Shown here: positions 1-64,000 of the stretch, piece after piece
Numbering within the stretch: position 1 is the first letter of the stretch
Layout: the number at the start of each line of letters is the position of its first letter
Assembly: GCF_003096355.1 (NCBI RefSeq)
Contig: NZ_QEKI01000015.1
Coordinates: forward strand, 62,001-126,000
Reading direction: 5' to 3'
Source of the DNA: Pontibacter virosus
GTDB taxonomy: Bacteria > Bacteroidota > Bacteroidia > Cytophagales > Hymenobacteraceae
Length of the DNA: 64,000 nucleotides
The notes under the pieces: model-generated
The model's database searches: none
What the model saw: only the letters and a program-made list of their open reading frames with translations
Told to the model about the DNA's origin: nothing
Program-made: the position numbers and the translations under genes

Positions 1-1332
1 AGCGTTGCGGGAGCGGTTCTTCTGTTGCTCCATCTCCACACCAAAGCCAGCTTCGTCCACTTTGAGGCCTTTTTCACGGGCGATCAGGGCGGTCAGGTCC
101 AGCGGGAATCCGAACGTATCATACAGTTCGAAGGCAGTTTTGCCGTCGATGGTGTTGTTGTTCTCTTTGAATTTAGCTTCCAAAGCGTCCAGACGCTTCA
201 GGCCGTTTTCCAGCGTACGCAGGAAAGCGTTTTCTTCTTCCTCAATCACACGCTGCACGAAGCTTAGCTGTGCTTTCAGTTCCGGGAATACGTTTTCCAT
301 CTGGTCCGCCAGTACGGCAGCCAGTTTATACAGGAATGGCTTTTTGAAGTCGAGGAATGTAAAGCTATACCTGACCGCACGGCGCAGGATACGGCGAATC
401 ACATAGCCCGCCTTATTGTTAGACGGCAGCTGTCCGTCCGAAATCGCAAAAGCAATGGCCCGGATGTGGTCGGCCATGACGCGGATGGCAATGTCTACTT
501 GCTCGTTTTCTCCATAAACAACACCGGCTTCTTTGGCGATGAACTGGATCAGCGGCTGGAAAACGTCGGTATCGTAGTTAGAACGTTTGCCCTGAATGGC
601 CATACACAGACGCTCGAAGCCCATACCTGTATCGACGTGCTGCGCAGGCAGTTTTACCAGCGAGCCATCGGCCAGACGGTTGAACTCCATGAATACGTTG
701 TTCCAGATCTCCACCACCTGCGGATGGTCAGCGTTGACGAGTGTCTTGCCGTCCACCTGTGCACGCTCCTCGTCGGTACGCAAGTCCACGTGAATCTCCG
801 AGCACGGACCGCAAGGACCAGTGTCGCCCATCTCCCAGAAGTTGTCCTTCTTGTTGCCCATCAGAATGCGGTCTTCCGCAATCATAGACTTCCAGATATC
901 AAAAGCTTCCTGGTCCATCGGCAGGTTCTCGGAGTCATCACCCTGGAAAACCGACACATACAGTCTATCTTTCGGCAGTTGGTATACCTCTGTCAAAAGT
1001 TCCCAGGACCAGGCCAGCGCCTCTTTCTTGAAATAGTCGCCGAAAGACCAGTTGCCCAGCATCTCGAACATCGTATGGTGATAGGTGTCGTAACCTACTT
1101 CTTCCAAGTCGTTGTGCTTGCCCGATACGCGAAGACATTTCTGGGTGTCGGCAATGCGCTTGGATGGGGCGGGTTTGTTGCCCAGGAAGTAGTCCTTGAA
1201 GGGCGCCATACCTGAGTTGATAAACATCAGGGTGGGGTCATCTTTCACCACAAGGGGTGCTGACGGCACGATCTGATGCTGCCGTTGCGCAAAGAAGTCA
1301 AGAAACTTTTGTCTAATTTCAGCTGAGTTCAT
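1..1332 (-). CDS. alaS: Alanyl-tRNA synthetase, N-terminal part (cut by window edge)
   Basis: Charges tRNA-Ala with alanine in the cytoplasm. Read from the ATG at 1332, the protein starts [19 protein letters not shown] and continues through class II AlaRS catalytic motifs such as [28 protein letters not shown], and [21 protein letters not shown]. The first 444 codons are present; the family is usually about 870 residues, so the editing and C-terminal domains lie beyond the left edge. The frame stays open to base 1. It is divergent from the MerR gene across a spacer of about 200 bp. The identification is firm; only the 3' part is unseen. Confidence 0.95.
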
Positions 1333-1535
1333 CTATGATTATTAAGCCTTTAGATACAATCTGCTATACTTGTTGTTTAATAACAAAAAATATAGAATTT
1401 TTGCCTTATAGAAACAGCCCTTTCGGGCAATGCTTACACGGGCCTGCATTAGGGCAAAAGTAGCAATTTTAGCCGTAATTCTGCGTGCTATACCCGAAAA
1501 TTAGTGCTGCTGCCCTATACCTTGAAACCGACACT

Positions 1536-1883
1536 ATGCCTTATAAAGAAAAAGAAATCGAAAAGCAGTACTACACCATCGGTGAAGTAGCTGCCCAGTT
1601 TGACGTCGCCCCTTCGCTGATCCGCTTCTGGGAGACTGAGTTTGACCAGCTCAAGCCGAAGAAAAACAAGAAAGGCAACCGCCAGTACACTGCCAAGGAC
1701 ATTGAAGAATTGCGAGCGGTCTACCACCTGGTAAAAGAGCGCGGCTTCACGATACAGGGCGCTAAGGAAGTGCTGAAGAACAAATCGGTGCAGACCAAGG
1801 ACAAGATCGAGATCATCAATTCGCTGGAGAAAGTGCGTTCTTTCCTGGTGGGAATCAAGGAACAGCTGAACACCAAAAGCTAA
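1536..1883 (+). CDS. MerR-family transcriptional regulator
   Basis: A 115-residue DNA-binding protein. The motif YYTIGEVAAQFDVAPSLIRF near residues 10-30 is the MerR helix-turn-helix, followed by the wing (NRQYTAKDIEELR) and a short C-terminal helix that probably dimerises. There is no obvious C-terminal effector domain or metal-binding cysteines, so the signal it senses is unknown. I chose the ATG at 1536 (MPYKEKEIEKQY). An in-frame ATG at 1485 would add 17 residues that do not look like the family. It sits 18 bp before dprA and is probably co-transcribed with it. Confidence 0.85.
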   Translation: MPYKEKEIEKQYYTIGEVAAQFDVAPSLIRFWETEFDQLKPKKNKKGNRQYTAKDIEELRAVYHLVKERGFTIQGAKEVLKNKSVQTKDKIEIINSLEKVRSFLVGIKEQLNTKS

Positions 1884-1901
1884 GCCTGCGTACTTTGGTG
1901 C

Positions 1902-3023
1902 ATGTCACACGAAGCCCAGTTTGAAGTAGCCCTCTCGTTTTTGCCCCACGTCGGCGACCAGCTGACGAAGGTGCTCGTGAGTTATTGCGGCTCTGCCAAA
2001 GCCGTGTTTGACACGCCTGTTGCCAAGCTATTGAAGGTGCCGGGCGTGGGTGAGCGTGTAGCGAAGAGCATTCGCGACAACGGTCGTCAGGCCTTATTGG
2101 AAGCGGAAGATGTGCTGAAAAAGGCTGCAGACAAGCATGTGCAATTGCTGTTCTATACCTCACCGAAGTACCCGAACCGGCTGAAGCAACTGCCCGACGC
2201 CCCGCCCCTCCTCTATTTCAGAGGAAACTCCGACTTAAACCATCGCCGCATTATCAGCATTGTAGGCACCCGTAAACCAACGAGTTATGGGCAAGCGATA
2301 ACCGAGCGGATTGTGGATGAACTGAAGCCCTATAATGTGATGATCGTGAGCGGTCTGGCCTACGGCATTGACATTGCCGCTCACCGGGCCGCACTGCAGG
2401 CCGGACTTCCGACCATCGGCGTGATGGCCTCCGGACCTGATACGATCTACCCCGGGGTGCATAAAAAGTATGCCGAGAAAATGCTCGAGCAAGGCGGCGT
2501 AATCACCGAGAACACCTTCGGCACCAAACCCGATGCACCGAGATTCCCAGCCAGAAACCGCATCATCGCAGGTATGTCCGACTGCACCATCGTGATAGAG
2601 GCGGCTTTCAAGAGCGGAACCCTCATTACTGCTGACATCGCCCACAGCTATGACAAAGAAGTGATGGCTGTGCCTGGCAATATCAACTCTCCCATGTCGG
2701 AAGGCACCAATTGGCTGATCAAATCACACAAAGCGGCTGTGCTAACTTCCACCCAAGACCTGATCGAATTGCTTAACTGGGATGTCGAAGACAAACTGGC
2801 CTCCAAAAGGGCCGCTGCTATACCTGCCCTAGACCCGGCAGATTTCACACCGGAAGAAATGCAGGTGCTGCAAGTGCTGATTCAATCCGGCGAAGAGCAA
2901 ATGGATAATTTAGGCTGGAAGTCACAGGTACCGGTTAACCAATTGGCCTCCGTGCTGTTAGGTCTGGAATTTAAAGGAATGGTGAAAGCGCTTCCAGGGA
3001 AACGGTTTGCTTTGATTCGGTAA
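1902..3023 (+). CDS. dprA: DNA-processing protein DprA
   Basis: Loads RecA onto incoming single-stranded DNA during natural transformation, and is also widely conserved in non-competent bacteria. The 373-residue protein has an N-terminal helical region containing an HhH-like KVPGVGERVAKSI. A Rossmann-type core follows (VGTRKPTSYGQAITERIV, VSGLAYGIDIAAHRAAL, GPDTIYPGVHKKYAE, FPARNRIIAGMSD, SGTLITADIAHSYDKEV). A C-terminal winged-helix region (about 300-373) ends in KGMVKALPGKRFALIR. The length is normal. It starts 18 bp after the MerR stop. Confidence 0.96.
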   Translation: MSHEAQFEVALSFLPHVGDQLTKVLVSYCGSAKAVFDTPVAKLLKVPGVGERVAKSIRDNGRQALLEAEDVLKKAADKHVQLLFYTSPKYPNRLKQLPDAPPLLYFRGNSDLNHRRIISIVGTRKPTSYGQAITERIVDELKPYNVMIVSGLAYGIDIAAHRAALQAGLPTIGVMASGPDTIYPGVHKKYAEKMLEQGGVITENTFGTKPDAPRFPARNRIIAGMSDCTIVIEAAFKSGTLITADIAHSYDKEVMAVPGNINSPMSEGTNWLIKSHKAAVLTSTQDLIELLNWDVEDKLASKRAAAIPALDPADFTPEEMQVLQVLIQSGEEQMDNLGWKSQVPVNQLASVLLGLEFKGMVKALPGKRFALIR

Positions 3024-3052
3024 TGGTGTAGATAATTGCGCTTTCTTTTAAA

Positions 3053-3189: not shown

Positions 3190-4005
3190 TTGCTTCTCTA
3201 CAACAATACTTTCCTTCCTGTACAAGATCTGAAGCTAGCCATCACCAGCCGGGCCTTTCAGTATAATGACGGCTTTTTCGAAACAGTGATGGCTGTGGAT
3301 GGCATGCTGCGCTTTTGGCCTGACCATCAAGCGCGAATGAGAGAGGCAACTGCAGCCCTGCAATTGGCTATACCTGCTTATTTTTGGGATGGAGAGCTCG
3401 AAGAAAAACTGTTGCAGCTGGCTAAACAACGCAATGTGCCTCAGTTAGGTCGTCTTAAGCTGAAGGTATGGCGGGCGGGTGCCGGACTATATACCCCACA
3501 AATCAACGAAATCGAATGGTTGGCAACGGCAGAACCAACGCAACCTATACCTGACGTTGGTATAAAAGTCGGGATTTGTCAGACTGCTAAAGCGTGCTTC
3601 TCTCCTCTTTCCCATTTCAAAGGTCCGCAAGCCCCACTTTATGTACTGGCAGGTATAGAGAAGCAAGCCAGCGGTTTGGATGATATGCTGCTATTGGATG
3701 CAAAAGGCAACGTCGCGGAGCTGATCTCTTCCAATATTTTCTGGCTGAAGGATGGAACGCTCTATACCCCCACTTTGGAGTCTGGCTGTGTGAACGGGAT
3801 TTTGCGCCGCAATATCCTGCGCGGGTGCCTTCAGCAAGGTATAGCAGTACGTCAGGTGCTGGCTAAACCGGAAGAGTTGGTTCAAGCTGATTGCGTATTC
3901 GGGACCAATGCAACAGGTATACGAGGTATAGAGAAACTGGAGGATTCTCACCTACGGATCAATCATGATTGGTTGCAAAATCTTAAAGCCGGGCTACAGG
4001 TATAA
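3190..4005 (+). CDS. Class IV aminotransferase (PabC/branched-chain aminotransferase fold)
   Basis: PLP enzyme of fold type IV, 271 residues. Near the N-terminus RAFQYNDGFFETVMAVDG matches the conserved start of aminodeoxychorismate lyases and branched-chain or D-amino-acid transaminases. LKLKVWRAGAG carries the region of the PLP lysine, and AELISSNIFWLKDGTLYTP followed by GCVNGILRRNIL are the cofactor phosphate-binding segments. It is closest in feel to 4-amino-4-deoxychorismate lyase (folate synthesis), but substrate cannot be fixed from sequence. There is no ATG at the 5' end; the first usable start is TTG at 3190, which preserves the complete fold. Confidence 0.85.
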   Translation: MLLYNNTFLPVQDLKLAITSRAFQYNDGFFETVMAVDGMLRFWPDHQARMREATAALQLAIPAYFWDGELEEKLLQLAKQRNVPQLGRLKLKVWRAGAGLYTPQINEIEWLATAEPTQPIPDVGIKVGICQTAKACFSPLSHFKGPQAPLYVLAGIEKQASGLDDMLLLDAKGNVAELISSNIFWLKDGTLYTPTLESGCVNGILRRNILRGCLQQGIAVRQVLAKPEELVQADCVFGTNATGIRGIEKLEDSHLRINHDWLQNLKAGLQV

Positions 4006-15796: not shown

Positions 15797-17980
15797 TTAG
15801 GCTTTGAATTGAATTTTGAAACTGGTGCCTCTGCCTGGTTCTGATGTCACTTTGATCTTTCCCTTCAGTATGTCCAAATAAGTTTTGACCAAAAACAAGC
15901 CTATGCCTCTGCCCTGGTAGCCAACATGAAACCGCTTGTAGATTTTGAACAGGTCCTCTCCCACCTGGTGCATGTTCATGCCTACACCATTGTCACTTAT
16001 TTTGAGTGTCACGGTTTCCTTTTTCCTGCTGGCAGAAATAGTAAGATCGAGTGGTTTGTCCTTTTGCCTGAACTTAATTGCGTTTGAGATCAGGTTCTTG
16101 AGAATCTCCAGCAGGTATGCCTTGTTGGAGACTAATTTGATTTCAGAATCTACGGTTACTTGAAGGTTGCAGGGTTGGCGGTTGAGTTTATATTCCATCA
16201 GGGTGATCGCTTCGTCCACTATCCTTGCCAGGTATACCTCTTCGCGTTGCAGGTCCTCGTGCTGGTCGCGTATGGAAAGCACATGGTTCATGTCGCGAAT
16301 GACCGTATCCAGGTTGTGTGCAGATAATTTTATTTTCTGTATGAGCTGATCATACATGGCGTCACGCTTATCGATGCGGCCCATTAGACTCGACAGCCCC
16401 ATGATGTTGGCAGCCGGAGCCCGAAGGTTATGCGATACCATATAGCTGAAGTGCTGCAGGTCGTGGTTCTGGCGAAACAATTCACGGGTTGCCTCTATCA
16501 GTTCCTCTTCTTTTGCTTTTCGAGCTGTAATGTCTGTCCGGATCGAGATGAACCTAATAAGGTCTCCATGCTCGTCATGGACTGGCGTGATCTCCAGGAA
16601 AAACCAGATTTTTTTGCCGTCTTTTGTATAATTAAGTATTTCACCCCTGAAAGGCTTGCCATTGGCAATGTGCTTCCGGATCTTGTTTAATGTTTTAGGA
16701 TCTGTCTCCTCACCTGACAGCAATGCTGTAGAGTCCCGAAGTATGATCTCGCTCAAGGTATAGCCTGTTACGCTTTCGAATGCTTCATTTGCCCATTCAA
16801 TCTGCCCCCGTTTGTTTTTGATAAGAATACAGGTATTTGTCTTGCTGGCAACCAACGATAGTTTTTCAAGTCGGTCCTGCTCCTTTTTCTTTTCCGTTAT
16901 ATCCACAAAATGAACAGAGATGTCTTCCCCAGTTGGGTATATCTGTAGGTTGATGGTAGTGGCTTCGTGATGCGGAGAGGACGTTTCCATGACAGCCGGC
17001 ATACCTGTTTGGGCCACCTGCAGGCAAGTTTTGAAAAAACTGCCGTTCACCGCATCTGGAAACAAATCCCATATCTTCTTACCAAGGAGGTCTGTCTTAG
17101 AAATACCCAGATACTGGCAGTAATGATTGTTGGCATAGGTATAGCGCCACTCCCGATCGAGCGAGAAGAAAGACTCCGGCAAACGTTCCATGATACTGTG
17201 CAACTGTTTGGACTGCGCCGCTGTGTAGCTTTCGTATTTTTTCTGCAACGTAATATCGCGGGCTATACCTTGTATCTTCACAATGTCATTTCCTATCACC
17301 ACGGGCACAACGGCAATAGTCAGGTACACTTCCTCCTGTTCAGGTTTTACGATCGACAGTTCCACCTGGTGTGCGTTCCCCTCCAGTGCTCTTACAAAGG
17401 CATTCAGCGCGATCGGAAGGTCTTTTTCATGCACCAAATCACGGAAGTGCATGCCTTTTATTTCTTCCGGCCCATAGCCTGCCAGCTTAGGGAAGTTTTT
17501 GTTGACGAGTGTAAAAAAGCCGCCCCTGTCCAGCTCGAATACCGCATCAGGGTGATTATGAAACAGGGACTCGTAATGCGCCTGCGACCGAAATTGTTGT
17601 CGCTCCACCTCTACCCGATCTGTTATATCAATTGAGTTGGTCACAAAGCCCCGCACTTCCGGATTATCCGACATATTGGTAATACGGCATTGTAACCAGC
17701 GCCAGCTTCCGTTTAGGTGCCTGAAGCGGAAATTTGGCAGGTTGGTTGTCCTGTTAAATAGGGCACTTCCCAAAGCGGATGCAACCAGAGGCTGGTCGTC
17801 GGGGTGAATGAATTCAAAAGCCGAGCGAGAAACCAGGTCTGCTGGTTGATAGCCTAGTAAGCTTCGGATGGAGCCGCCAACAAATTGGTAGTTGCCTGAG
17901 GCATCTATGACAGAAAACAACTCGCCACTGCTATCCATTATTGAGCTGATGAATTTTTCCTTCAGGCGGGCAAATTTCAT
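15797..17980 (-). CDS. Multi-PAS sensor histidine kinase
   Basis: A 727-residue soluble kinase. Four PAS/PAC units in order: about 12-125 (IDASGNYQFVGGSIRSLLGY), 135-255 (FELDRGGFFTLVNKNFPKLA), 265-375 (FSLDREWRYTYANNHYCQYL) and 385-500 (IKNKRGQIEWANEAFESVTG). A DHp helix with the His in FSYMVSHNLRAPAANIMG follows, then the ATPase with LKNLISNAIKFRQ, ISDNGVGMN and GRGIGLFLVKTYLDI. It has no receiver domain, so it must signal to a separate regulator; the NtrC-type protein nearby is a candidate. The ligand of the PAS units is unknown. Confidence 0.92.
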   Translation of the reverse strand: MKFARLKEKFISSIMDSSGELFSVIDASGNYQFVGGSIRSLLGYQPADLVSRSAFEFIHPDDQPLVASALGSALFNRTTNLPNFRFRHLNGSWRWLQCRITNMSDNPEVRGFVTNSIDITDRVEVERQQFRSQAHYESLFHNHPDAVFELDRGGFFTLVNKNFPKLAGYGPEEIKGMHFRDLVHEKDLPIALNAFVRALEGNAHQVELSIVKPEQEEVYLTIAVVPVVIGNDIVKIQGIARDITLQKKYESYTAAQSKQLHSIMERLPESFFSLDREWRYTYANNHYCQYLGISKTDLLGKKIWDLFPDAVNGSFFKTCLQVAQTGMPAVMETSSPHHEATTINLQIYPTGEDISVHFVDITEKKKEQDRLEKLSLVASKTNTCILIKNKRGQIEWANEAFESVTGYTLSEIILRDSTALLSGEETDPKTLNKIRKHIANGKPFRGEILNYTKDGKKIWFFLEITPVHDEHGDLIRFISIRTDITARKAKEEELIEATRELFRQNHDLQHFSYMVSHNLRAPAANIMGLSSLMGRIDKRDAMYDQLIQKIKLSAHNLDTVIRDMNHVLSIRDQHEDLQREEVYLARIVDEAITLMEYKLNRQPCNLQVTVDSEIKLVSNKAYLLEILKNLISNAIKFRQKDKPLDLTISASRKKETVTLKISDNGVGMNMHQVGEDLFKIYKRFHVGYQGRGIGLFLVKTYLDILKGKIKVTSEPGRGTSFKIQFKA

Positions 17981-18450: not shown

Positions 18451-21400
18451 ATGATGGAAACTTCATACGAGCTGCAGGTTTTGCAAAATGAGCTCGAAAA
18501 AGAAAAGAAAGCACGTCAGGAAGCTGAACTTAAGGCCACCTCTCTTGCCAGCGAACTAGAGCTGCTGCGTACAAATCAGCCTGATACAACGGCAGAGCTC
18601 GTGCAAAATGTCATGCACATGGTGCCGAGTATCGTCTACATTTACGATCTGGATCAGAATAAAAGCATCTACCTTAACAACAGCATCAAAACGATTCTGG
18701 GGTACACGCAACAGGACCTGGATGCCATGGACGGTCATTTTTTTATGTCCGTTATACAAGACGTGGACAAGCCCGTCCTGCTGCAGCACACCTCGGGCAT
18801 GCTAAGTGCCCGGGACGGCGAGATTCGGGAAATAACATATAGTGTACGGGCAAGGGACGGCTCCAGCAGAATTCTATTTTGTAAGGAAGCCGTTTTCAGA
18901 CGCAATGCCGATGGCAAAGTTAGCCAGATCATCGGATCGGCTGAGGACACCACCAAATTGCGTCAGAAGAACCAGGAACTGGCCGAACAGAAAGCGTTTT
19001 ATGAGGCCATCCTGAACAATCTGCCTTCAGACGTGGCTGTTTATGATGATCAGCTGCGCTACATTTTTGTGAACCCGACGGCCGTGTCGGATCCACACCT
19101 TCGGGAATGGATCATTAATAAAACGAACGAAGAGTACTGCGCTTACCGCAATGTGCCGTTGCACCGCATAGAAAACCGTGGTAAGCATTTAATTAAAGTC
19201 TTACAGGAACGTCGTCAGGTCTCGTTTGAGGAAAGGCTCGTCGATAAACAGGGCAACGCAAGTTACCATATCCGAAAACTCAAGCCAGTACTCGACGAGA
19301 AGGGCGAAGTAAGGATCGTTATCGGGCACGGACTTAATATTACCGATCTGCATCACGCACAGCAGGAGATCAAAAACAGTGAAGCCAAAATACGGGCGAT
19401 GCTGGATGCCATACCTGACCTTATGTTTATCATCGACAAACGTGGGGTATACCTGGAGATGCATAATGAACACTCACAGTACGATATCATGCAGCCCTCA
19501 GAGGTGGTTGGGAAAACACTCTTTGATATGCTCCCTGCTTCCCTCAGCCAAAAAGCATTTGACCTGATACAGGACGTGCTGGCAACCGGTCAGATGCAGT
19601 CAATAAACTACGAACTGGACGAGCGGTTTTACGAAGGACGTATCGTAAAGTACAATGAAGAGCAGGTGTTGACGATTGTACGCGATGTGACAGAAGAGCG
19701 TAAGGCTGCCGATGAAGTAAAAGAGAAGAATGACTTTATCAGACTGGTGCTAGATACCAGTCCTACACTGATTTATGTAAAGGACGGCGCAGGCAATTTC
19801 AAACTTGTGAACCATGAGTGCGCCGCGCTGTTTGGAAAGGAGCCAAAGGATCTTCTGGATCAGAATACCAACGATCTGCATAAGGTGTCGCAAGAATTGC
19901 AGTATTATAACGAGGTTGACCAAATCGTGATCCAAACCGGTCAGGAGCTTCGTGTACAGGACAGCTTTACCCTGCCTGATGGTCGCGTGGAATGGTTCAA
20001 CACCATCAAAAAGCCCCTTACCACAAAAAATGGCGATGTGCATGTGCTGGGCATATCCGCAAACATCACAGAGCAATATAACGCCAACAAACGACTGGAG
20101 GAGAGCGAGGAACTGCACAGGCTGCTGTCCGAAAACTCACGCGACCTGGTTTGTTTGCACGACGCTGAGGGAAACTTTCTCTATGTCTCGAATGCCGTGG
20201 AAGAGATGCTGGGCTACAAGCCCGCTGAGTTGATCGGAATTTCTGCCTATGATATCATACATCCGGATGATGCGCTCAAAGTGCACACCATGGGCCACCA
20301 GATCGCTTTAGAGAAAAGACACGACACGACTGTACAGCACCGTAAAAAGCACCGGGATGGCCACTACATCTGGGTCGAAACCAGCATCAAGCCCATTACC
20401 AACAATGCAGACAATATCATCAAAATTCAGTCCTCTTCACGTGAAATAACAGAGCGCCGGCTGGCAGAAGAAGCTCTCAAAAAGAGCGAGAAGAAGTACC
20501 GTGACCTGATCAAGTACAGCCAGGCTTATTTGTGTACGCACGATATGCAGGGCGTCATCCTTTCTGTTAACCCCTACCTGGTCGAAATGCTGGGCTATAC
20601 AGAAGAGGAGATTCTGGGTAAAGAGCTAAAACAGTTCTTCCCGCTACTGCATCGCCAGCACTTCCCGGACTACCTGAAGCAGTTTGAAGATAACACCGTG
20701 GTCAAAGGTATACTGAGCGTACTGCGGAAAGACAAAGAGGAGCGCTTCCTCAACTACCAGAATTATAAAGTAAGTGAAGATGGTCAGGCCCCTTACGTCA
20801 TTGGGATTGCGCAGGACGTGACCGACCGGATCATGACCGAGCGTGAACTCAAAAATGCCAAAGAAGCGGCTGAAGAGTCTGCACGGGTAAAAGAGAACTT
20901 TCTAGCCAATATGAGCCACGAGATCAGGACGCCACTCAATGGTATACTGGGCATGAGTGGTCTGTTGCACAAAACCCAGCTGGACGATACGCAACTCAAT
21001 TACCTCAAGATCATCAACAAGTCTGCTGACAACCTGCTGGTCGTTATAAATGACATTCTGGATGTGGCTAAGATTGAAGCAGGTAAGCTGGAGCTGGAGT
21101 CTATTCCATTCAGAATTGAAGAGACTGTGCAAGCAGCCTATCAGGCATTGAAGTACAAGGCCGAAGAAAAGGATATTGCCCTTCAGCTTGGCCAGTTGGA
21201 CCTGCCGCATAGCCTATTGCAGGGAGATCCCTACCGCCTGAATCAGATTCTTCTGAATTTGTTAAACAATGCCATTAAGTTCACGGAGGAAGGAAGCGTT
21301 ACCCTGCACGCCAGAACGCTGGAGGAAACACCATCTACCCTCACCATCGAGTTTTCGGTAGTTGATACAGGTATAGGCGTACCGTCCGACAAAAAGGATT

Positions 21401-22413
21401 TGATCTTCGAGGGCTTTACACAGGCCTATTCCAGCATCACCCGTAAGTATGGAGGTACCGGACTCGGACTCAGCATTTGTAAAAACCTGGTAGAGCGGCA
21501 GGGTGGCGATATCTGGGTAGAAGATAATCCGCAAGGAGGCAGTATTTTCCAGTTTATGATCACTTACCCGAAAAGCGAAATAGACAAACTCCCGGAGGAA
21601 GAAGCCGCAGATATTGACTACAGTAGCCTGGGTGCTGTAAAGGTATTGCTGGCAGAGGACAATGAAGTGAACGTTTTCCTGGCGCAGGCTATCATGGAAG
21701 AATGGGGCTTTGCGCTGGACGTTGCCACCAACGGCCTCGAAGCTGTCGAAATGGTACAGCGATCGGATTACGACATTGTACTGATGGACATCCAGATGCC
21801 GGAACTAAGCGGAATTGATGCTACGATACAGATCAGGGCTATGGGCGATCCGCGTAAAGCCGGTATTCCGATCATTGCCCTCACAGCCAATGCTCTGAAA
21901 GGAGATGCCGAAAAATACCTGAGCGCAGGTATGAATGACTATCTGTCGAAGCCTTTTGAATCTGAAGTGCTGTTTGCCAAAATTGCCAGCCTGGTACCTG
22001 ATAAGCAATACAGAGCCGAGCAAAAAGGCACTGACACTCCACAGCAAGTGCAGGATGAGCAAGTGAATGCTGCTCCACTTTACAGCATGGAGGTCATCCA
22101 GAAAATGTCGCACAACAACGAGGTGTTTATGAACCGTGCCCGTCAGCTCTTTGCCGATACCATACCTGTTACCGTGCGCGATCTGCAAATTGCGCTGGAG
22201 CAGAATGACTGGAAGTCGGTGAGTGCCTTGGCGCACAAGGTTAAGTCTACCATTGACACCATGAAGATCGACTCCCTGAAAGAAACTGTGCGGTTTGTAG
22301 AGTCAAATGCCAAGCAGGAAACCAATTTAGCTGAAGTGCGCACGGGCGCCATGCAAATCGCAAAGGTGCTGCTGCAGGTAGTCGATCAGATTTGCGAAGA
22401 AATCAGTTCGTAA
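18451..22413 (+). CDS. Hybrid histidine kinase: six PAS, kinase, receiver, Hpt
   Basis: A 1320-residue soluble phosphorelay protein. A short coiled coil (about 5-40, rich in Glu/Lys/Ala) precedes six PAS units at roughly 50-165, 178-290, 303-405, 410-535, 545-670 and 675-800. The DHp helix has the acceptor His823 ([20 protein letters not shown]); the ATPase has [24 protein letters not shown] and [15 protein letters not shown]. The receiver carries Asp1113 ([13 protein letters not shown]) and an Hpt domain carries His1262 ([13 protein letters not shown]). It can pass phosphate His-Asp-His to an external regulator. ATG codons at 18451 and 18454 are equally usable. Confidence 0.95.
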
Positions 22414-22437
22414 GTAAGTTATAATTTCGAAATTACA

Positions 22438-22480
22438 GCCTGCCCTGCTAGCATGATGATGTACGGGGCAGGCTTTTTTG
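22438..22480 (+). terminator. Rho-independent terminator of the hybrid kinase
   Basis: GCCTGCCC pairs with GGGCAGGC, followed by TTTTTT at 22474-22479. It starts 25 bp after the kinase stop. Confidence 0.85.
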
Positions 22481-22536
22481 TAAAGTTTTAGCCCAATCAA
22501 CCGTAAGCCCTACTGACAGCTAAGTACATTTTACCT

Positions 22537-23709
22537 ATGCCCTCTACCCTGCCCCTTGTTTCTATACCTGATCTGCATGAAATCACGGCGTTACGCCACC
22601 ACTTGCACCGGCACCCTGAACTCTCCGGCCTTGAGTATGAAACAAGTCTCACCCTTAAAAGCTTCTTACAGCGTTACCAGCCTGCTGAAATAATAAAAGA
22701 TCTTGGCGGCACTGGCTTCGCAGCCATCTTCCATGGAAGCGAAACGAACGAAGGACCAACCGTATTGTTTCGTGCGGAGTTAGATGCACTCCCGATAATT
22801 GAACAAAACGAGCTACCCTATACCTCCATTCATATAAGTGTCAGTCACAAATGCGGGCACGATGGACATATGTCCATTTTAGCCGGGCTTGCCAGTATGT
22901 TGCACCATAACCCATTGCCACGGGGCCGCGTGGTACTGCTGTTTCAGACTGCAGAGGAGAACGGCGCGGGTGCCTTGGCAGTACTCCGGACGGCGGCCTT
23001 TCAGCAGCTTGCTCCTGATTATGTTTTTGCGCTGCACAATATCCCTGGTTTACCCATGGGACAGGTACTCTACCGCCCAGACATATTCGCGGCAGCCTCT
23101 GTGGGACTGCAGGTGAAGCTGCATGGCAAAGAGTCCCATGCGGCGGAGCCTGAGAATGGGCTGAACCCAGGTGAAGGCATGAGCGAACTGATTCAAGCCT
23201 TTAATGCCCTGATCCGGGACCCACAAAATTTTCGGGACCTGACATTGCTCACCATTGTGCATGCCCGCTTGGGTGAAGTCTCCTTTGGTATCAACCCAGG
23301 TTTTGCGGTGGTATTGGCCACACTCAGGGCCTTTGAGCAGGAAGACCTGAATAAACTGAAATCACTTGCAGTAGAGTCTGTTAGGCTGGTTACGCTCAAG
23401 TACGGATTAAGGTATGAGTTGGAGTGGTTCGAAGAATTTCCCGCCACACGCTGTAGTGAGGAAGCAGTAAAACTTGTAGCGGAAGCAGCAAGGCAACTGG
23501 ACATGGACGTGAAGCAGGCCGCACAACCGGTTCGCTGGTCTGAGGACTTCGGGCACTTCACCAACAGGTATAGCGGTGCCCTTTTCGGATTGGGCTCCGG
23601 TCCGGACCAACCACAGCTCCACCATGCCGACTATGATTTTCCTGATGAACTTATACCTACGGGAGCCGCCTTGTTTTACCGCATCGCAGCGTCTGTAATA
23701 AACCCCTAA
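22537..23709 (+). CDS. M20-family metal-dependent amidohydrolase
   Basis: A 390-residue zinc peptidase/deacylase of the M20D group (hippurate hydrolase, IAA-amino-acid hydrolase type). HHLHRHPELSGLEYET at the start, FRAELDALPIIEQNELPY, the metal-binding HKCGHDGHMSILAGLA, the catalytic Glu pair in FQTAEENGAGA, and FALHNIPGLPMG are all present. The dimerisation domain includes HGKESHAAEPENGLNPGE. The substrate is an N-acyl amino acid or dipeptide. It is followed 7 bp later by alanine racemase, so the two are probably co-transcribed and perhaps linked to amino-acid or peptidoglycan metabolism. Confidence 0.92.
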   Translation: MPSTLPLVSIPDLHEITALRHHLHRHPELSGLEYETSLTLKSFLQRYQPAEIIKDLGGTGFAAIFHGSETNEGPTVLFRAELDALPIIEQNELPYTSIHISVSHKCGHDGHMSILAGLASMLHHNPLPRGRVVLLFQTAEENGAGALAVLRTAAFQQLAPDYVFALHNIPGLPMGQVLYRPDIFAAASVGLQVKLHGKESHAAEPENGLNPGEGMSELIQAFNALIRDPQNFRDLTLLTIVHARLGEVSFGINPGFAVVLATLRAFEQEDLNKLKSLAVESVRLVTLKYGLRYELEWFEEFPATRCSEEAVKLVAEAARQLDMDVKQAAQPVRWSEDFGHFTNRYSGALFGLGSGPDQPQLHHADYDFPDELIPTGAALFYRIAASVINP

Positions 23710-23716
23710 CCACTTC

Positions 23717-24868
23717 ATGTTCCATAGTTCTTATATCGAAATAAGCAGTTCATCTTTAGCGCATAACATTAAGTTTCTTAAAGCCCAGCTAAGCCCTGCC
23801 ACCCGCTTTTCTTCCGTGATAAAGGGAAACGCGTATGGGCACGGCATTGAGGAGTTCGGGAAACTGGCTCATACCTGCGGAGTTGACCATTTCTCAGTTT
23901 TCAGTGCCGATGAGGCCTACCGCCTGCATCAAGTGCTGCCCCGGCACGTTACCATCATGATCATGGGCTACATTGATGATGCGGAACTGGCCTGGGCTAT
24001 TGCTAACGACATTGAGCTTTATATTTTTTCGATCAACAGGTTGGAACAAGCAGCCATTGCAGCCCGATCTTTACAAAAGCCGGCCCGTATCCATCTCGAT
24101 CTGGAGACCGGCATGAATCGCATTGGATTAGACACCGCTGAAATAGAACGAGCTGCCGATATTATTCTAAAGCAACCTGATGCATTTGAGCTAGTGGGAG
24201 TGTCCACGCACTATGCAGGGGCTGAGAGCAGTGAAAACCATGACCGGGTAACAGGACAGTTAAACAAATACCACCTGGCCGTGCGCTCGATTCTGCAGAA
24301 AGGACTTAAGATAAAAACCCTGCATACAGCCTGCTCGGCAGCCGTTATGTCATACCCTGAAACGCATCTGGACTTGGTACGGGTTGGTATTATGCAGTAT
24401 GGTTTCTGGCCAAGCCCGGAAATCTACCAGCGTTATATGGGAGTGAGCACTGACCGCACAGATCCCTTGAGGCGGTTAATCAATTGGAAAAGCCATGTAA
24501 TGAGCTTAAAGCTAGTACCGTCGGGTGAGTTTATAGGGTATGGCAAAAGTTTTCAGGCCAGCAGCGAAATGCTGATTGCGGCCATTCCGGTGGGGTACGC
24601 CTGGGGGTATAGTCGTAGCCTGAGTAACCAGGGGCATGTACTCATCAGATCGCATAGGGCGCCTGTGGTTGGCATTGTTAATATGAATGTACTGATGGTG
24701 GATGTGACAGGTATACCCAACGTGTCGCTGCAGGACGAGGTCGTACTGCTGGGCAAACAGGGGAATGAGCACATTACGGTGGCTTCCTTTGCCGAGCTCA
24801 GCACACAGCTCAACTATGAATTACTCACCAGACTCCCCATAAACATCCCCCGGATCATCATAGACTAG
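23717..24868 (+). CDS. alr: Alanine racemase
   Basis: Converts L- to D-alanine for peptidoglycan. 383 residues, PLP-dependent, with an N-terminal TIM barrel: the PLP lysine is Lys36 in FSSVIKGNAYGHG. RIHLDLETGMNRIGL and LVGVSTHYAGAESSEN are the barrel strands that bind the cofactor, and VRVGIMQYGFWPS follows. The C-terminal beta domain has IGYGKSFQASSE, with the second catalytic Tyr region, and VPVGYAWGYSR-type residues (IPVGYAWGYSRSLSNQG). The length is usual. Its stop overlaps the stop of the convergent channel gene by 4 bp. Confidence 0.95.
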   Translation: MFHSSYIEISSSSLAHNIKFLKAQLSPATRFSSVIKGNAYGHGIEEFGKLAHTCGVDHFSVFSADEAYRLHQVLPRHVTIMIMGYIDDAELAWAIANDIELYIFSINRLEQAAIAARSLQKPARIHLDLETGMNRIGLDTAEIERAADIILKQPDAFELVGVSTHYAGAESSENHDRVTGQLNKYHLAVRSILQKGLKIKTLHTACSAAVMSYPETHLDLVRVGIMQYGFWPSPEIYQRYMGVSTDRTDPLRRLINWKSHVMSLKLVPSGEFIGYGKSFQASSEMLIAAIPVGYAWGYSRSLSNQGHVLIRSHRAPVVGIVNMNVLMVDVTGIPNVSLQDEVVLLGKQGNEHITVASFAELSTQLNYELLTRLPINIPRIIID

Positions 24869-25713: not shown

Positions 25714-25721
25714 ACTGCCGA

Positions 25722-39388: not shown

Positions 39389-39446
39389 CACAATTATCCT
39401 TTATTAATGTCTGACACAAAGGTAATTGGATGGTGAAGCCTAAAAG

Positions 39447-39670: not shown

Positions 39671-39703
39671 ATTGCCTATACCTTATACCTTGCGCCAATC
39701 GAC

Positions 39704-40408
39704 CTAGTCGTACATATGGCTGATCTTGTACAGCTTGTCGTGATCCAGAATGGTAATGGAGCTGCCCTTGGCGGAAATGAGTCCTTCGTCTTTGAACTCG
39801 GAAAGTAGTCGGATAGTCGTTTCCTTGGCAGTACCGACAATGGAGGCCAGGTCTTCGCGGGAGATAGAAATGGTAAATGTATCGCCTTCTTCCCGCTCCT
39901 GATATGTTTTCTGGAGCAGCAGCAAAGCCTCAGCCAAACGCTCGCGTACTGGCTTGTAGGCCATTTGCACCATGCGTTCCTCCGCCTCCCCCAGGGCATT
40001 GGAAATAAGCTTCATCAGCCCACCCGCAAACTCCACGTTCTGACTGATCAACTCCAGGAACTGCGAACGAGGTATAAAACAGATCACAGCATCCTCCAGT
40101 GCAACCGCCGAGGCAGAATAATTGGTGTCAGCCATCAGGGCACGGTACCCGATCAGATCGCCCGGTTTGGCCAGGCGCACGATCTGCTCTTTGCCGTCGC
40201 TACCGAGCTTGGCGATTTTGATCTTGCCGGTGTTGATGCAGTAGAGGCCTGACGGCTTACCCCCCTCATGAAAGATCAGCTGCCCTTTCTTGTAAGTGAA
40301 ACACGATTTGGTTTCAGAAAGGTGCGTCAGCTCAGATGCCCGGCAGCAGCTCAGCAGGGAGTGTGCGCGGCTCGAACAGTTCAGACAGTCAGGGTTGGTG
40401 AATTTCAT
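39704..40408 (-). CDS. FNR-type transcription regulator, probable oxygen sensor
   Basis: A 234-residue Crp/Fnr regulator. N-terminal cysteines at 8, 11, 21 and 22 (PDCLNCSSRAHSLLSCC) precede the effector beta-roll. Cys110 in EDAVICFIPRSQF sits where FNR has Cys122 (VCEIPF), so three N-terminal cysteines plus Cys110 could hold a 4Fe-4S cluster; that is inference. The HTH SREDLASIVGTAKETTIRLL keeps the Glu and Arg that read the TGA half-site in FNR, with Ile in place of Ser212. The ATG at 40408 is chosen over the TTG at 40414. It probably controls the nearby FNR-like sites. Confidence 0.88.
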   Translation of the reverse strand: MKFTNPDCLNCSSRAHSLLSCCRASELTHLSETKSCFTYKKGQLIFHEGGKPSGLYCINTGKIKIAKLGSDGKEQIVRLAKPGDLIGYRALMADTNYSASAVALEDAVICFIPRSQFLELISQNVEFAGGLMKLISNALGEAEERMVQMAYKPVRERLAEALLLLQKTYQEREEGDTFTISISREDLASIVGTAKETTIRLLSEFKDEGLISAKGSSITILDHDKLYKISHMYD

Positions 40409-40516
40409 AAGCAATCAGGATGCTACAAAAGTATGCATTCGCCGGGTATATCGTATGCCTTCTAACATGCTTTTTTTGCAATTCGTTCTCAGGTTATACC
40501 TGTAAGTGTTTAAAGC

Positions 40517-40552
40517 TCAAAAAGAAAGCCCCTGCTTGTGTGCAGAGGCTTT
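40517..40552 (-). terminator. Terminator of the azurin-like gene
   Basis: AAAGCCCCTGC pairs with GCAGAGGCTTT with one mismatch; on the minus strand it continues CTTTTTG. It lies just beyond the stop at 40579. Confidence 0.7.
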
Positions 40553-40578
40553 GCTATTATAAAATCAAGGTATGGGGC

Positions 40579-41112
40579 TTACTCCCTGATAATCAGCTTT
40601 CCTTTCATCAAGGGTGTTTCGCTCGGGTAGGTGTTCACGTACTCGAAAACACCGGTTGTGTCGGGTGCCGTAAACTCCACTGTCACAGACTGACCGGGCA
40701 AAGCCAGGGGCGTCGCTGCCAGCAGCAGAGAGCTGTCTGGCAGGTAGTTGCCCGAAGCACCTGCTTTGCTCCCCTTTTGGGCGGCTTGTGCCGAGTAGCC
40801 TTCTTTCGTGAAAACGATGTTATAGATCATCTTCGGATCCTTCCCTTCGTTGGTAAAAGTCAGCTTTATCAGCGTACCTGCCTTTACCTCGATGGTGTCC
40901 TGATCGAAAGTCATGCTTTCAAGTTCCTCCCCACCGATGGCACGAATACTGATCTCGGCCACATGCTGCAGCGTGGTATCCGCCCCCACCTCCCGTTGCG
41001 TCAGGCTTCCGTCTGTTATTTTTTCAGGTCTGTCCCTTGAACTTTGCTCCTCGCCACAGGAGGCAAGCAGCATGTGTCCAAAGAGCAGGCATACTATTCC
41101 TAACTGTTTCAT
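40579..41112 (-). CDS. Azurin-fold lipoprotein lacking copper ligands
   Basis: A 177-residue predicted lipoprotein (MKQLGIVCLLFGHMLLASC, lipobox LASC, Cys19). From about residue 50 it aligns along the length of azurin: IEVKAGTLIKLTFTNEGKDP, MIYNIVFTKEG, YLPDSSLLLAATPLALPGQS, and VFEYVNTYPSETPLMKG. Azurin's copper site is His46, Cys112, His117 and Met121. By eye those positions are Tyr, Asn, Glu and Met, so three of four ligands are lost. It is therefore unlikely to bind type 1 copper. Electron transfer is improbable; a structural or metal-delivery role is possible. Confidence 0.75.
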   Translation of the reverse strand: MKQLGIVCLLFGHMLLASCGEEQSSRDRPEKITDGSLTQREVGADTTLQHVAEISIRAIGGEELESMTFDQDTIEVKAGTLIKLTFTNEGKDPKMIYNIVFTKEGYSAQAAQKGSKAGASGNYLPDSSLLLAATPLALPGQSVTVEFTAPDTTGVFEYVNTYPSETPLMKGKLIIRE

Positions 41113-41149
41113 AGTTCACATGTTAAGATGATATCCTTATATCTTCGGA

Positions 41150-42892
41150 TTAGCTGAATAGCTCCTGCTCCAGTCGCTTGTCGTGGCCGTAAATGTCATC
41201 ACGGAAGTGTACGTTGCCGTCTTCATCGACCCAGCTGGTGAAGTATACCAGGTATACCTGAATTTGCTTTGGTAAGGTGATCCACTTCTCCTCTCCTCCG
41301 CTAATCGTTTCACGGATGCGGCTCTCGTTCCACTCAGGCATGTCTTTCAGCACGTACTGTGCTAAGTCCATGGGGCGTTCCAGCCTAACGCAGCCATGGC
41401 TGAAACCACGCTGGGTCTGGCTGAACAAGGAGCCGGATGGCGTGTCGTGCAGGTATACGGCGTGCTCGTTCGGAAACAGGAATTTCATCGTGCCAAGCGA
41501 GTTCTTAGGCCCTGGACGCTGGCGAACCATGTAAGGGAAATCCTTTTCAGTGACTGACGACCAGTCGATGGAAGACGGGTCAATCTGCTTTGGTTCACGC
41601 TCTTTGGTCACTACTTCCATGTTCTGCCCTTCCAGATAACCCGGATTTCGGGCCATTGCCGGCGCGATCTCTTTTTCTACAATGCTGTTTGGTACATTCC
41701 AGAAAGGGGCCAACACCACATATTCCATTCTGTCGCTGAAGATTGGTGTGGAATGCATGGTTTTGCCCACGATCACATTCATCTCCATGGTTTTTTTGTA
41801 GGCGCGTTCTGCCTCCGGGCTGTTGTTCGGGTCTTCGTACACATAGAGTTTGTATTCCGGAATGTTTACCCAGATATACTTCTGGTCCAGACTCTTTGGC
41901 ACCAGGCGCTTTGGTATCCAGCGCCAGCGCTCCATGTTCATCATGATCTGCTGGATGCGGTCTTCCACCGGCACGTTCATCGTGCGCAGCGTGTTGCCAC
42001 CTACTTTGCCGTCAGGCACGATGCCGTGAAGTTCCTGGAATGCCTTTACCTGCGCCTCCAGTTTGTCGTCAAACTTGCGCATCACCGGGTCGTTTGCATT
42101 GATCTGTGCAGTTGGGTTCAGGCGTTGGCGAAGCGACAGCACGGCAGCGGCTGTATCGCCTTTCACCAGCATCTTTTTGTTGCCGAGTTCTACTTTAGAC
42201 CAGCCTCCTTTTTCTTCCAGCTCACGGTACTGCTGCAGGGCATCCCGCAGGTCGGCGTAGCCTTTGTGCAGCGCTTCAAACTCGTAGTACGGGTAGGTGC
42301 TTTCACGTTCCTTCAGGATTGTCTGGAGCGCTTTGTGCAGTTTTATTTTATTGTTACGAACGCCCCACTCCACCTGTTTTACGTTGCTTGGGTCGATGCG
42401 GCCCCTGTAAAAATCAGAGGCATAGTTGAAGTAAGTGGCAGTCAGGGCAATATCGATCTGCTGCTGTAATTGCAGACGCGCAGAGTCTTTACGTCCCATC
42501 TCATTGTATTGGCTGATCATCTCGTCGATGGCAACTACCTTATACTCTTTAGGGTCCAGGCCCTCTTGTGCGGCATTGTTTAGGGTCGTCAGCAACTTTT
42601 CTGATTCAGGCACCAGATCGGAGCCCCTGAACCAGCCCAGTCTGTATTCACGATCACCATAAAACTGGTAGATCAGGTCTTCGTGCTCTTTAAACTGCTT
42701 ATGCTGACCAATGTAGTCCTTTATGTATAGACTGTCGGTTTCAGTAGCGGCCACCGTGTTGAGGCCCAGCATTTCTTTAACGCCGCCGCCTTCTTCTTTG
42801 CTATCCCCGCTTTTGTTGCAAGCAGCAAGGCTAAACAGGCAAAGGAAGACCAGACCTATTGGTTTAAATTTCTGTAGGATGAAAGGGTTCAT
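41150..42892 (-). CDS. L,D-transpeptidase (YkuD) lipoprotein
   Basis: A 580-residue envelope protein. The ATG at 42892 gives MNPFILQKFKPIGLVFLCLF and the lipobox LAAC (Cys25). A helical scaffold domain follows, then a peptidoglycan-binding-like repeat (KLEAQVKAFQELHGIVPDGK). The catalytic YkuD domain has HDTPSGSLFSQTQRGFSHGC and VRLERPMDLA, the HxGx...SHGC(V)R motif with the nucleophile Cys. It makes 3-3 cross-links or attaches proteins to peptidoglycan. The layout matches the YcbB/LdtD group. Confidence 0.92.
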   Translation of the reverse strand: MNPFILQKFKPIGLVFLCLFSLAACNKSGDSKEEGGGVKEMLGLNTVAATETDSLYIKDYIGQHKQFKEHEDLIYQFYGDREYRLGWFRGSDLVPESEKLLTTLNNAAQEGLDPKEYKVVAIDEMISQYNEMGRKDSARLQLQQQIDIALTATYFNYASDFYRGRIDPSNVKQVEWGVRNNKIKLHKALQTILKERESTYPYYEFEALHKGYADLRDALQQYRELEEKGGWSKVELGNKKMLVKGDTAAAVLSLRQRLNPTAQINANDPVMRKFDDKLEAQVKAFQELHGIVPDGKVGGNTLRTMNVPVEDRIQQIMMNMERWRWIPKRLVPKSLDQKYIWVNIPEYKLYVYEDPNNSPEAERAYKKTMEMNVIVGKTMHSTPIFSDRMEYVVLAPFWNVPNSIVEKEIAPAMARNPGYLEGQNMEVVTKEREPKQIDPSSIDWSSVTEKDFPYMVRQRPGPKNSLGTMKFLFPNEHAVYLHDTPSGSLFSQTQRGFSHGCVRLERPMDLAQYVLKDMPEWNESRIRETISGGEEKWITLPKQIQVYLVYFTSWVDEDGNVHFRDDIYGHDKRLEQELFS

Positions 42893-45171: not shown

Positions 45172-45266
45172 GATGCAAACAGGTATAAACAAAAAAATCT
45201 GTCTCCTTCTGGCCAGCTTGTTTAGCATGGGGAAAGGACAGATTTTTTTCGGTATATTTTTAGAGC

Positions 45267-48533: not shown

Positions 48534-48639
48534 ATGCATTTCTGATTTAGCATGAAGCTGGCCTACCAAAACAAAACCGGGCGCCAGCTCTTATTACAGT
48601 ATAACGAGGTATAGCCTGTATACCTGCAGCCTTCTGACT

Positions 48640-52360: not shown

Positions 52361-52379
52361 CTATACCTATAAAAAAGGC

Positions 52380-52412
52380 AAAAGGCCGCTGCTATACCTA
52401 GCTGCGGCCTTT
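52380..52412. terminator. Terminator shared by PIN-PhoH and SRPBCC genes
   Basis: AAAAGGCCGC (52380-52389) pairs with GCGGCCTTTT (52403-52412), with A/T tails both sides. It lies between convergent genes and overlaps the last codons of the SRPBCC gene. Confidence 0.8.
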
Positions 52413-63061: not shown

Positions 63062-63184
63062 CGTCTTATTTTGTTTGTTTTAAAAAGCTAACGTATAAAT
63101 GTCAGGGCTGACTAGCTAAAGATAAGAACCTAAGGCGAGAATTAGAGTAAAAGAAGCATTCTTTTGGTGAAGCAATTTAAAACT

Positions 63185-63589
63185 ATGGACCTTAAAACAA
63201 TTGAATCAGAACTGAAGGAGGCGACGGATGGACTGCTTATGATGAGCGAAACAGACGCCCCTTTTGAATTCTACCATGCCGAAAACTTCCGGAACGAAAA
63301 ACTGGACGAAGAGACCGTACTGAAACTAGCAGCAATGCCAGCCGACTATCCTTTTGAGGAGATGGAGCTTGGGTATTTTTTCAGAAATATGACCAAGTCC
63401 AGACCGGAATCGGGTGATGAAGATGGGCAGCAGGTCGGGCGCTTCCAAAACCTGGAGAAAAAGCTGCACGAGCTCCTGCAGAACGTGAAGGTATACCGCG
63501 TCGGCGAAACCCAGAAACTGGTACTCATACTGGGCCGAACTCCCGACGGCGAGATTGCCGGCCTTAAAACGATGGTGGTCGAAACCTGA
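63185..63589 (+). CDS. nuiA: NuiA-like nuclease inhibitor
   Basis: A 134-residue cytoplasmic protein of the nuclease A inhibitor family (cyanobacterial NuiA is 135 residues). EATDGLLMMSETDAPFEFYH holds the acidic contact region, VKVYRVGETQKLVLILGRTP and GEIAGLKTMVVET end the protein; NuiA also ends in a Thr that reaches the metal in NucA's active site. The ATG at 63185 is chosen because it gives the family start. It converges with a NucA-family nuclease gene 62 bp away, its probable target. Confidence 0.9.
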   Translation: MDLKTIESELKEATDGLLMMSETDAPFEFYHAENFRNEKLDEETVLKLAAMPADYPFEEMELGYFFRNMTKSRPESGDEDGQQVGRFQNLEKKLHELLQNVKVYRVGETQKLVLILGRTPDGEIAGLKTMVVET

Positions 63590-63597
63590 TCAAAATT

Positions 63598-63631
63598 AAA
63601 AATCCCCGACTGCAGCAGCCGGGGATTTTTT
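63598..63631. terminator. Terminator between NuiA-like and NucA-like genes
   Basis: AAAAATCCCC pairs with GGGGATTTTTT around a short loop containing a GC/GC inner pair. The stem suits both converging genes. Confidence 0.9.
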
Positions 63632-63650
63632 ATAGCAAGTCAGCTATACC

Positions 63651-64000
63651 TTAGGAAGTCGGCCCAGAGTCGACACGGGCCTCTATAACACTTTGCACCG
63701 CATCTGGCACATTGGAAAGGATGTTGTAGCCTGTCTTGGTCTCGATCGCATCTACAGTTGTGCGGTAATTTCCCCAGGTGTTGCTGACGTTGTTGGAGTT
63801 TGGTGTGTCGATCGCGATAACGCGTGTGCTGCTTGTCACGCGTGCAACGTCATTTGCACCCAGTGGCAGCACCACAATTACCTTCCAGATACGATTCGGC
63901 ACCGTTACCTTTCCATTTGCCAGCGTTTCCTTATACCCGTTGCTGCCAGATCCACCTTTGCCATACTGGCCCATGATGATGTACAGTTCATTTCCCTGGC
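63651..64000 (-). CDS. DNA/RNA non-specific endonuclease, NucA family (C-terminal part)
   Basis: The C-terminal ~115 residues of a nuclease of the NucA/Serratia family, cut by the window edge. QGNELYIIMGQYGKGG, GKVTVPNRIWKVIVVLPLG, STRVIAIDTPNSNNVSNTW and TGYNILSNVPDAVQSVIEAR match the NucA C-terminus along its length. The catalytic DRGH motif lies beyond the right edge. NucA-type enzymes are secreted and degrade DNA and RNA. It converges with a NuiA-like inhibitor. Confidence 0.88.
   Translation of the reverse strand, partial: QGNELYIIMGQYGKGGSGSNGYKETLANGKVTVPNRIWKVIVVLPLGANDVARVTSSTRVIAIDTPNSNNVSNTWGNYRTTVDAIETKTGYNILSNVPDAVQSVIEARVDSGPTS

Follow-up and report, generated by a model that had tools for sequence, protein, structure and literature searches.

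A Short Word in Thousands of Copies and Several Dialects in Pontibacter: a Candidate DNA-Uptake Sequence

Why should a 64-kb stretch of the Pontibacter virosus genome (contig 15, positions 62001-126000, here called the window) carry the same seven-base word over and over? The genome analyzed (G000) has 4.88 Mb in 42 contigs. In the window we counted AGGTATA/TATACCT 109 times (58+51 by strand), where 7.8 copies are expected for independent, identically distributed (iid) bases and 10.3 under an order-2 Markov model. The shorter GGTATA/TATACC is found 163 times (85+78), against expectations of 31.2 and 37.7. The initial annotation, a reading by eye, had given about 105 and 150 sites with random expectations of 8 and 31; the expectations agree with the iid calculation, and the over-representation is real and larger than stated. 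When window k-mers were scored against the order-2 model, AGGTATA was the top 7-mer and AGGTATAG (61 copies, 1.9 expected) the top 8-mer. Genome-wide, AGGTATAG occurs 4084 times (1992+2092 by strand) and the reversed-word control 122 times (55+67), which places the word far beyond chance. The window sites are dispersed and not confined to a few repeats: their spacing is random, with a coefficient of variation of 1.02 (0.98 for random placement, range 0.82 to 1.20). Uptake sequences are typically short words in marked excess across the whole genome on both strands, at about one per kb, as this one is. By analogy with those of the Neisseriaceae and Pasteurellaceae, we consider it somewhat probable that the copies of the word have built up over time through a DNA-uptake system with a sequence bias.

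The consensus around the word in G000 is approximately cAGGTATAGc. The base T follows AGGTATA at one of the 109 window sites, and flanks more than about 10 bases from the word hold slight information. Near-misses are enriched in a manner graded by position: those changed at position 8 (C or A), position 1 (G) or position 7 (G) are present at 3.9 to 7.6 times expectation, and those changed at positions 3 to 6 at 0 to 2.5 times.

The window word is one dialect of a genus-wide family, which was invisible to the initial annotation made from a single window. An unbiased 8-mer scan of 21-kb loci of named species found other top words in other Pontibacter species. AGGTATAG is present in 2,823 to 5,222 copies in nine of the 37 genomes (out of 50) in which it was counted, and it marks one clade (AGG); three more genomes (G059, G063, and G067) were assigned to this clade by the comEC tree only. 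Of 50 genomes of the genus, 23 have 2,125 to 7,030 copies of AAGTATAA and seven have 2,002 to 8,208 copies of AACTATAG. One or both of these two words are carried by 27 of 50 genomes, three of which carry both. G036 favors GGGTATAA (1,228 copies, against 65 of the reversed word and 127 to 384 in the other 49 genomes). G069 favors ATATATAR: ATATATA occurs 516 times in 400 kb, which is 20 times the iid expectation (twelve other genomes sampled reach 0 to 1.8 times). A microsatellite effect is not the cause of this excess, since the TA runs of G069 mostly measure 6 to 8 bases. Word density is reduced in G007. Eight genomes (G002, G024, G025, G026, G028, G033, G064, and G068) are word-poor, a status defined by two or three pattern counts plus 40 kb each, which leaves room for an unrelated sparse word in G002. 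Some of them contain a residue, e.g., 638 copies of AGGTATAG against 191 of the reversed word in G002. In 22 genomes from other families of the order, AGGTATAG does not exceed about 1.3 times the reversed word, and no such word was found at the Rufibacter and Hymenobacter loci examined.

In a comEC tree of the 50 genomes, drawn without support values, AGG forms one clade beside AAG-bearing lineages and AAC forms another with the mixed genomes nearby; the word-poor genomes are scattered in several places. A tree of the CcoG region likewise groups AGG and AAC. Named examples are P. indicus for AGG, P. flavimaris for AAG, P. populi for AAC, and P. beigongshangensis for the word-poor state. Clade-specific dialects around a constant core, here TATA, are a second property known from uptake sequences.

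Alignment of related species, which are not independent of one another, indicates that sites are kept within a dialect and in many cases respelled between dialects. In a 21-kb alignment of eight AGG-dialect sequences with 80 to 92% identity, AGGTATA was unchanged in other AGG species in 1456 of 2004 comparisons (72.7%). The corresponding figures are 30.4% for its anagrams and 29.8% for words with the same base composition, and AGGTATA came 11th among the 3083 words that had 150 comparisons or more. In AAG species, 24.8% of 689 comparisons show AAGTATA at an AGGTATA site (3.9% for control words with the same change), and the reverse change was seen in 24.3% (control 3.4%). Unchanged AGGTATA across dialects was rarer than control (6.7% vs 18.0%). 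Since AGG and AAG sites align far above control, many of them are identical sites with a changed spelling. Most AACTATA sites occupy new places; in AAG species 3.7% appear as AAGTATA (control 0.2%), and 4.0% were unchanged. The outgroup keeps AGGTATA in 0 of 296 comparisons (control 12.9%); hence most sites arose within the genus. In this cross-dialect set the control words used three to five source or target species and the words themselves three to ten; the mixed L022 was excluded, and so was L032 from the word-poor group. Unchanged AGGTATA in that group amounts to 17 of 378 comparisons with L032 and 0 of 301 without it, so L032 shares AGGTATA sites; an earlier label of "none" had been assigned from 21 kb of each species. 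Among the few one-step changes scored in the alignment, 5 gains and 21 losses, several positions and several base changes are involved.

On a simple gene map based on open reading frames, genes contain 90 of the 109 window sites (1.57 per kb, with every one of the six frames used), and the remaining 19 fall between genes or at gene edges (2.88 per kb), in line with the initial annotation of sites in genes and spacers on both strands. The same annotation held that the sites impose the ATA codon in Gly-Ile (GGT-ATA) and Ile-Pro (ATA-CCT) pairs. Both contexts are indeed enriched: GGT precedes 35 of 225 ATA codons and 17 of 986 ATT+ATC codons (Fisher p = 3e-15), and CCT follows 24 of 225 and 2 of 986, respectively (p = 2e-16). 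Together with the use of all six frames, this supports its view that protein sequence is not the driver.

Samples of 391 to 400 kb were taken from three genomes with different dialects, G000 (AGG), G021 (AAG), and G030 (AAC). The non-coding and coding densities per kb are 2.42:1.19, 3.82:1.34, and 8.16:2.30, respectively, i.e., spacers are 2.0 to 3.5 times richer; in each genome density falls from convergent through tandem to divergent spacers. Word pairs no more than 60 bases apart exceed expectation (71:41, 165:73, and 402:229), and overlapping palindromes at offset 3 were found in 8, 16, and 121 places. AGGTATAG (AGG) and AAGTATAA (AAG) are not palindromes, and palindromes of the form AACTATAGTT are common in the AAC dialect only (242 both-strand counts, i.e., 121 places, against 1.2 expected). 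In the G030 loci L143-L162 this 10-base palindrome is present at about 200 times the order-2 expectation. A long spacer of G021 (L197, 7560-8640) carries tandem arrays of AAGTATA (at about 8400-8610) between repeated palindromic blocks. The sites and pairs in the window are as follows; the back-to-back examples of the initial annotation (3915/3925, 39677/39683, 41245/41252, and 48609/48619) were right to within a few bases.

1..64000, both strands: dispersed AGGTATA (58) and TATACCT (51) sites, exhaustive count
Forward starts include 3651, 3837, 3915, 3924, 5250, 8038, 8935, 9650, 12193, 14390, 16230, 18291, 21369, 28542, 29928, 35136, 48607, 49352, 57305, and 61728
Reverse starts include 366, 1516, 2154, 2819, 3369, 6684, 9910, 12131, 16233, 22563, 29463, 32096, 37268, 39677, 39684, 43881, 48619, 52362, 52393, 59026, and 63645
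1902..3023, + strand: dprA, DNA recombination-mediator protein A (373 aa, PF02481 plus a winged-helix domain), which holds two words (2154 and 2819)
3915..3930, + strand: tandem word pair, starts 3915/3924, spacing 9 bases
16230..16239: overlapping inverted pair, palindrome AGGTATACCT
21231..42660: aligned stretch used for retention (72.7% vs about 30% in controls), loci L009-L015 and L054 (eight AGG-dialect sequences plus L015)
30077..30086: overlapping inverted pair, palindrome AGGTATACCT
39677..39690, - strand: tandem word pair in a spacer, starts 39677/39684, spacing 7 bases
41250..41259: overlapping inverted pair, palindrome AGGTATACCT, starts 41250/41253 (41245/41252 in the initial annotation)
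45181..45187, + strand: one word in the spacer of convergent genes 43215-45122 (+) and 45267-45770 (-)
48607..48625: inverted word pair in a spacer, starts 48607/48619, spacing 12 bases
52362..52399, - strand: two words at the short spacer of convergent genes 50945-52360 (+) and 52398-52979 (-)

Four of the segments with the lowest word density look acquired. Sixty segments of word-bearing genomes were sampled, and four of the poorest and two of the richest were annotated (other poor segments are L167, L173, and L187). L163 (5 words) encodes an MmeI-type restriction-modification (RM) enzyme, AbiEii, MerT, Schlafen, and SIR2 proteins; L164 (7 words) a P-type ATPase and a multicopper oxidase; and L193 (8 words) an S49 peptidase, an MmeI-type RM enzyme, and a D12 methylase in an arrangement that we read as phage-like. 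L146 (26 words, compared to 45 to 83 in other G030 segments) carries type I RM and GmrSD genes, but ordinary genes as well. All four thus contain island-type genes (RM, toxin-antitoxin, phage-like or metal-resistance), and the rich segments L169 and L197 contain ordinary or unknown genes. MmeI-type RM genes are found in two of the word-poorest segments, at 6763-9516 (+) of L163 in G000 and 10771-13527 (+) of L193 in G021.

The hosts carry competence genes, as hosts of uptake sequences do. A ComEC domain was detected in 50 of 50 genomes, although G009 and G022 have a broken frame and G018 a split one. An intact DprA is encoded by 48 of 50, and a ComEA-like protein of 304 to 346 aa with three HHH motifs is intact in 49 of 50 among the matches listed and broken in G022. 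The broken genes are comEC, dprA, and the comEA-like gene in G022 (L299, L300, and L291) and comEC and dprA in G009 (L301 and L286).

A protein that reads the word was sought among several candidates. A pilus ATPase was not found: PF00437 matches cover about 40 to 66 of 370 positions, and 3 of 50 genomes just pass the cut-off. With such short and partial matches only, a type IV pilus was rejected as the uptake machine, and with no such ATPase found a pilin reader as in Neisseria is unlikely. DUF5689, the domain of Riemerella RA0C_RS04920, was rejected as the reader because it is patchy (22 of 50 genomes, none in G000). Of nine loci listed, seven hold DUF5689 hits, which lie beside SusD-like genes, in another short lipoprotein-like gene, or in proteins of more than 1000 aa. 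This DUF5689 search did not identify the outer-envelope proteins RA0C_RS04915/04920 in Pontibacter, and there was no obvious outer-membrane partner beside comEC at the two loci listed (L273 and L288). The ComEA-like protein was also rejected: it is conserved across dialects and in word-poor species, and inspection of an 18-row alignment by eye revealed no evident signature of the dialects. The open reading frame filter had removed G069 from that alignment; tblastn finds its gene without a stop.

A word that is kept at thousands of places, mostly within genes, and respelled by clade would point to a drive that acts on all sites together. Such a drive can come from biased uptake followed by recombination or from a bias in mutation or repair; these are the two known kinds. 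In Pontibacter uptake is favored by the constant core with dialects, the mixed genomes, the overlapping dyads, and the spacer preference (all as in the DNA uptake sequences, DUS, of the Neisseriaceae), and by the island segments and the competence genes. Under biased uptake an envelope protein would prefer DNA that carries the word, and DNA of kin would enter and recombine via a pathway with ComEC, the ComEA-like protein, and DprA. Word alleles would be over-represented in the incoming DNA, and words would accumulate. Molecular drive over thousands of sites would keep the words, and not the value of each single site. A shift in the preference of the reader would cause old sites to be respelled in place, giving rise to dialects of the form A-N-N-TATA-R. 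We infer that the biased step is uptake and that there is a single reader, located in the envelope and distinct from a type IV pilin.

Several observations weigh against biased uptake. ComEC, DprA, and ComEA-like genes are not confined to word-bearing genomes, as all eight word-poor ones have them. G009 keeps full word density (5041 copies) despite its broken comEC and dprA. In G022, where three genes are broken, AAGTATAA is present at 0.46 per kb compared to 0.71 to 1.44 in its eight nearest tree relatives, but G020 is also low (0.45 per kb) without such lesions; a clear drop in word density after loss of competence genes is thus not seen. The search for a reader among the pilus, DUF5689, comEC-neighbor, and ComEA-like candidates did not identify one. 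Retention exceeds control modestly in the AAG group (28.0% vs 16.7%) and in the AAC group (34.3% vs 26.7%, 70 comparisons), and the AAG dialect has a mild leading-strand excess (403:314, p = 0.001). Preference for the DNA of close kin is known in the phylum from one distant genus only. Finally, a drive based on repair or methylation could also explain the respelling, the retention, and the island depletion.

That drive, similar to HIP1 or to very-short-patch repair, is the strongest of the alternatives, although we consider it unlikely. A methyltransferase or repair enzyme that recognizes near-misses would bias mutation or mismatch repair toward the word without any part played by uptake, and dialects would follow changes in its recognition domain. 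It explains the drive over all sites and the dialects equally well, and the frequent AACTATAGTT palindromes of the AAC dialect (121 places vs 1.2) speak for it. A long PF01555 methyltransferase (505 to 696 aa) is found in 10 of the 12 AGG-clade genomes (three of them placed by the tree), but not in G003 and G011. Among all 50 genomes PF01555 was undetected in 19, including the word-bearing G003, G011, G030, and others, and the PF20473 type was undetected in 10, five of which are word-bearing (G029, G030, G031, G032, and G060). No methyltransferase coextensive with the word was found with these two profiles in 50 genomes; other families were not searched. Repair or methylation is disfavored so far because neither family has a coextensive enzyme and because the gains and losses, few as they are, use varied positions and base changes.

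It is less probable still that the word is the binding site of a chromosome-organizing or DNA-processing protein (nucleoid, Chi-like, or segregation) under selection at each site. Its short length, its clade-specific spelling as in Chi, and the preference for spacers would suit such a protein. However, no strong strand skew of the Chi or KOPS type was found by local GC skew in the three sampled genomes: the leading:lagging counts are 256:271 for AGG (p = 0.54), 683:614 for AAC (p = 0.06), and 403:314 for AAG, the last being a mild excess. Moreover, with thousands of genic sites and 73% retention, each site would presumably need appreciable selection. A by-product of codon usage, protein sequence, or base composition is already contradicted by these results: the GGT-ATA and ATA-CCT codon pairs are enriched as it predicts, but the sites occupy all six frames and spacers, exceed the order-2 expectation (109 vs 10.3) with no enrichment of the reversed word, and differ in spelling between sister clades at the same places. 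A mobile short repeat spreading by copying, which the tandem arrays in some spacers (L197) recall, is equally contradicted apart from those arrays, as flank information is slight, spacing in the window is random, and sites at aligned positions in conserved genes change by base substitutions.

Some other genes in the window may be mentioned. The 639-aa frame at 56679-58598 (+) is a gluconokinase-type N-terminus fused to a complete 6-phosphogluconate dehydrogenase (NCBIfam and Pfam). The 728-aa frame at 34340-36526 (-) combines a COX1-type oxidase subunit I with a FixO/CcoO domain and is located near CcoG (31235-32641, -), which shows 94 to 96% protein identity to homologs in P. sp. BT731, P. 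amylolyticus, P. ramchanderi, P. lucknowensis, P. indicus, and others. Large PAS-domain sensor kinases are encoded on opposite strands at 15797-17980 (-) and 18451-22413 (+), with about 470 bases between them; the latter is a hybrid kinase with receiver and Hpt domains.

The initial annotation had likened the word to uptake sequences or to HIP1. Anatomically the first comparison stands: the word matches uptake sequences in density, occurrence on both strands and in genes as well as spacers, clade dialects, graded near-misses, and low density in the annotated acquired-looking segments. The likeness to HIP1 is weaker, as neither the AGG nor the AAG word is palindromic and each of the two methylase profiles is undetected in some word-bearing genomes. 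ComP is the reader of DUS in the Neisseriaceae. The DUS dialects number about 1,900 to 5,918 copies per genome and display a constant core, dialects following phylogeny, a mixed genome, overlapping dyads, a spacer/terminator preference, and relatives without the word (PMC3630211). The Pontibacter word resembles them in its thousands of copies, constant core, dialects, mixed genomes, overlapping dyads, spacer preference, and word-poor relatives. It differs in its core (TATA instead of CTG), its Bacteroidota host, and the failure to find a type IV pilus ATPase, hence a ComP-type reader. Although it works like a DUS, we class it as a candidate uptake word outside the DUS proper, since no pilus ATPase was found. 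The uptake signal sequences (USS) of the Pasteurellaceae are dense on both strands. A gradual drive of near-misses has been described (PMC1939737). The Pontibacter word is also dense on both strands with enriched near-misses; the word and the hosts are different. HIP1 of cyanobacteria is a palindromic octamer found about once per kb, limited to clades, located in genes, and tied to particular methyltransferases (PMC4390886). The Pontibacter word shares the octamer length, the density, the clade limits, and the genic location, but not the palindrome in AGG and AAG or a coextensive methylase of the two types tested (PF20473 and PF01555). Chi is a short over-represented word that differs between groups and is oriented with the leading strand; the Pontibacter word is likewise short and group-specific, without marked leading-strand orientation.

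Within the phylum, transformation of Riemerella anatipestifer is pilus-free and requires ComEC, DprA, RecA, and ComF together with an HHH protein and with proteins of the outer envelope that do not resemble known machinery (PMC8459023). A preference for its own DNA is described for R. columbina (PMC7965970). These two species provide precedents in the phylum for a pilus-free machine and for self-preference, and ComEC, DprA, and the HHH protein are kinds of parts shared with Pontibacter. No uptake word is reported for Riemerella in the available portions of these papers (PMC8459023 and PMC7965970). Uptake words are known from the Neisseriaceae and Pasteurellaceae (PMC1939737). Among the open-licence PMC papers listed in our searches, mostly as titles and the first lines of abstracts, there was no report of an uptake word in Bacteroidota or of this word in Pontibacter.

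More tentatively, and at a little less than an even chance in our estimate, Pontibacter may possess an uptake system of a new type, with a non-pilus Bacteroidota envelope reader. Its specificity would have changed about four times in one genus (AAG to AGG, AAC, GGG, and ATA), and with each change thousands of sites would have been respelled or replaced, partly closing sister clades to gene exchange with one another. If this is true, pilus-free uptake specificity would have originated independently, and one genus with cultured species would offer five spellings, mixed genomes, and word-poor relatives. The reader could be sought on the branches where the spelling changed. The origin, switching, and loss of uptake words, and the recombination barrier they may create, would become directly testable.

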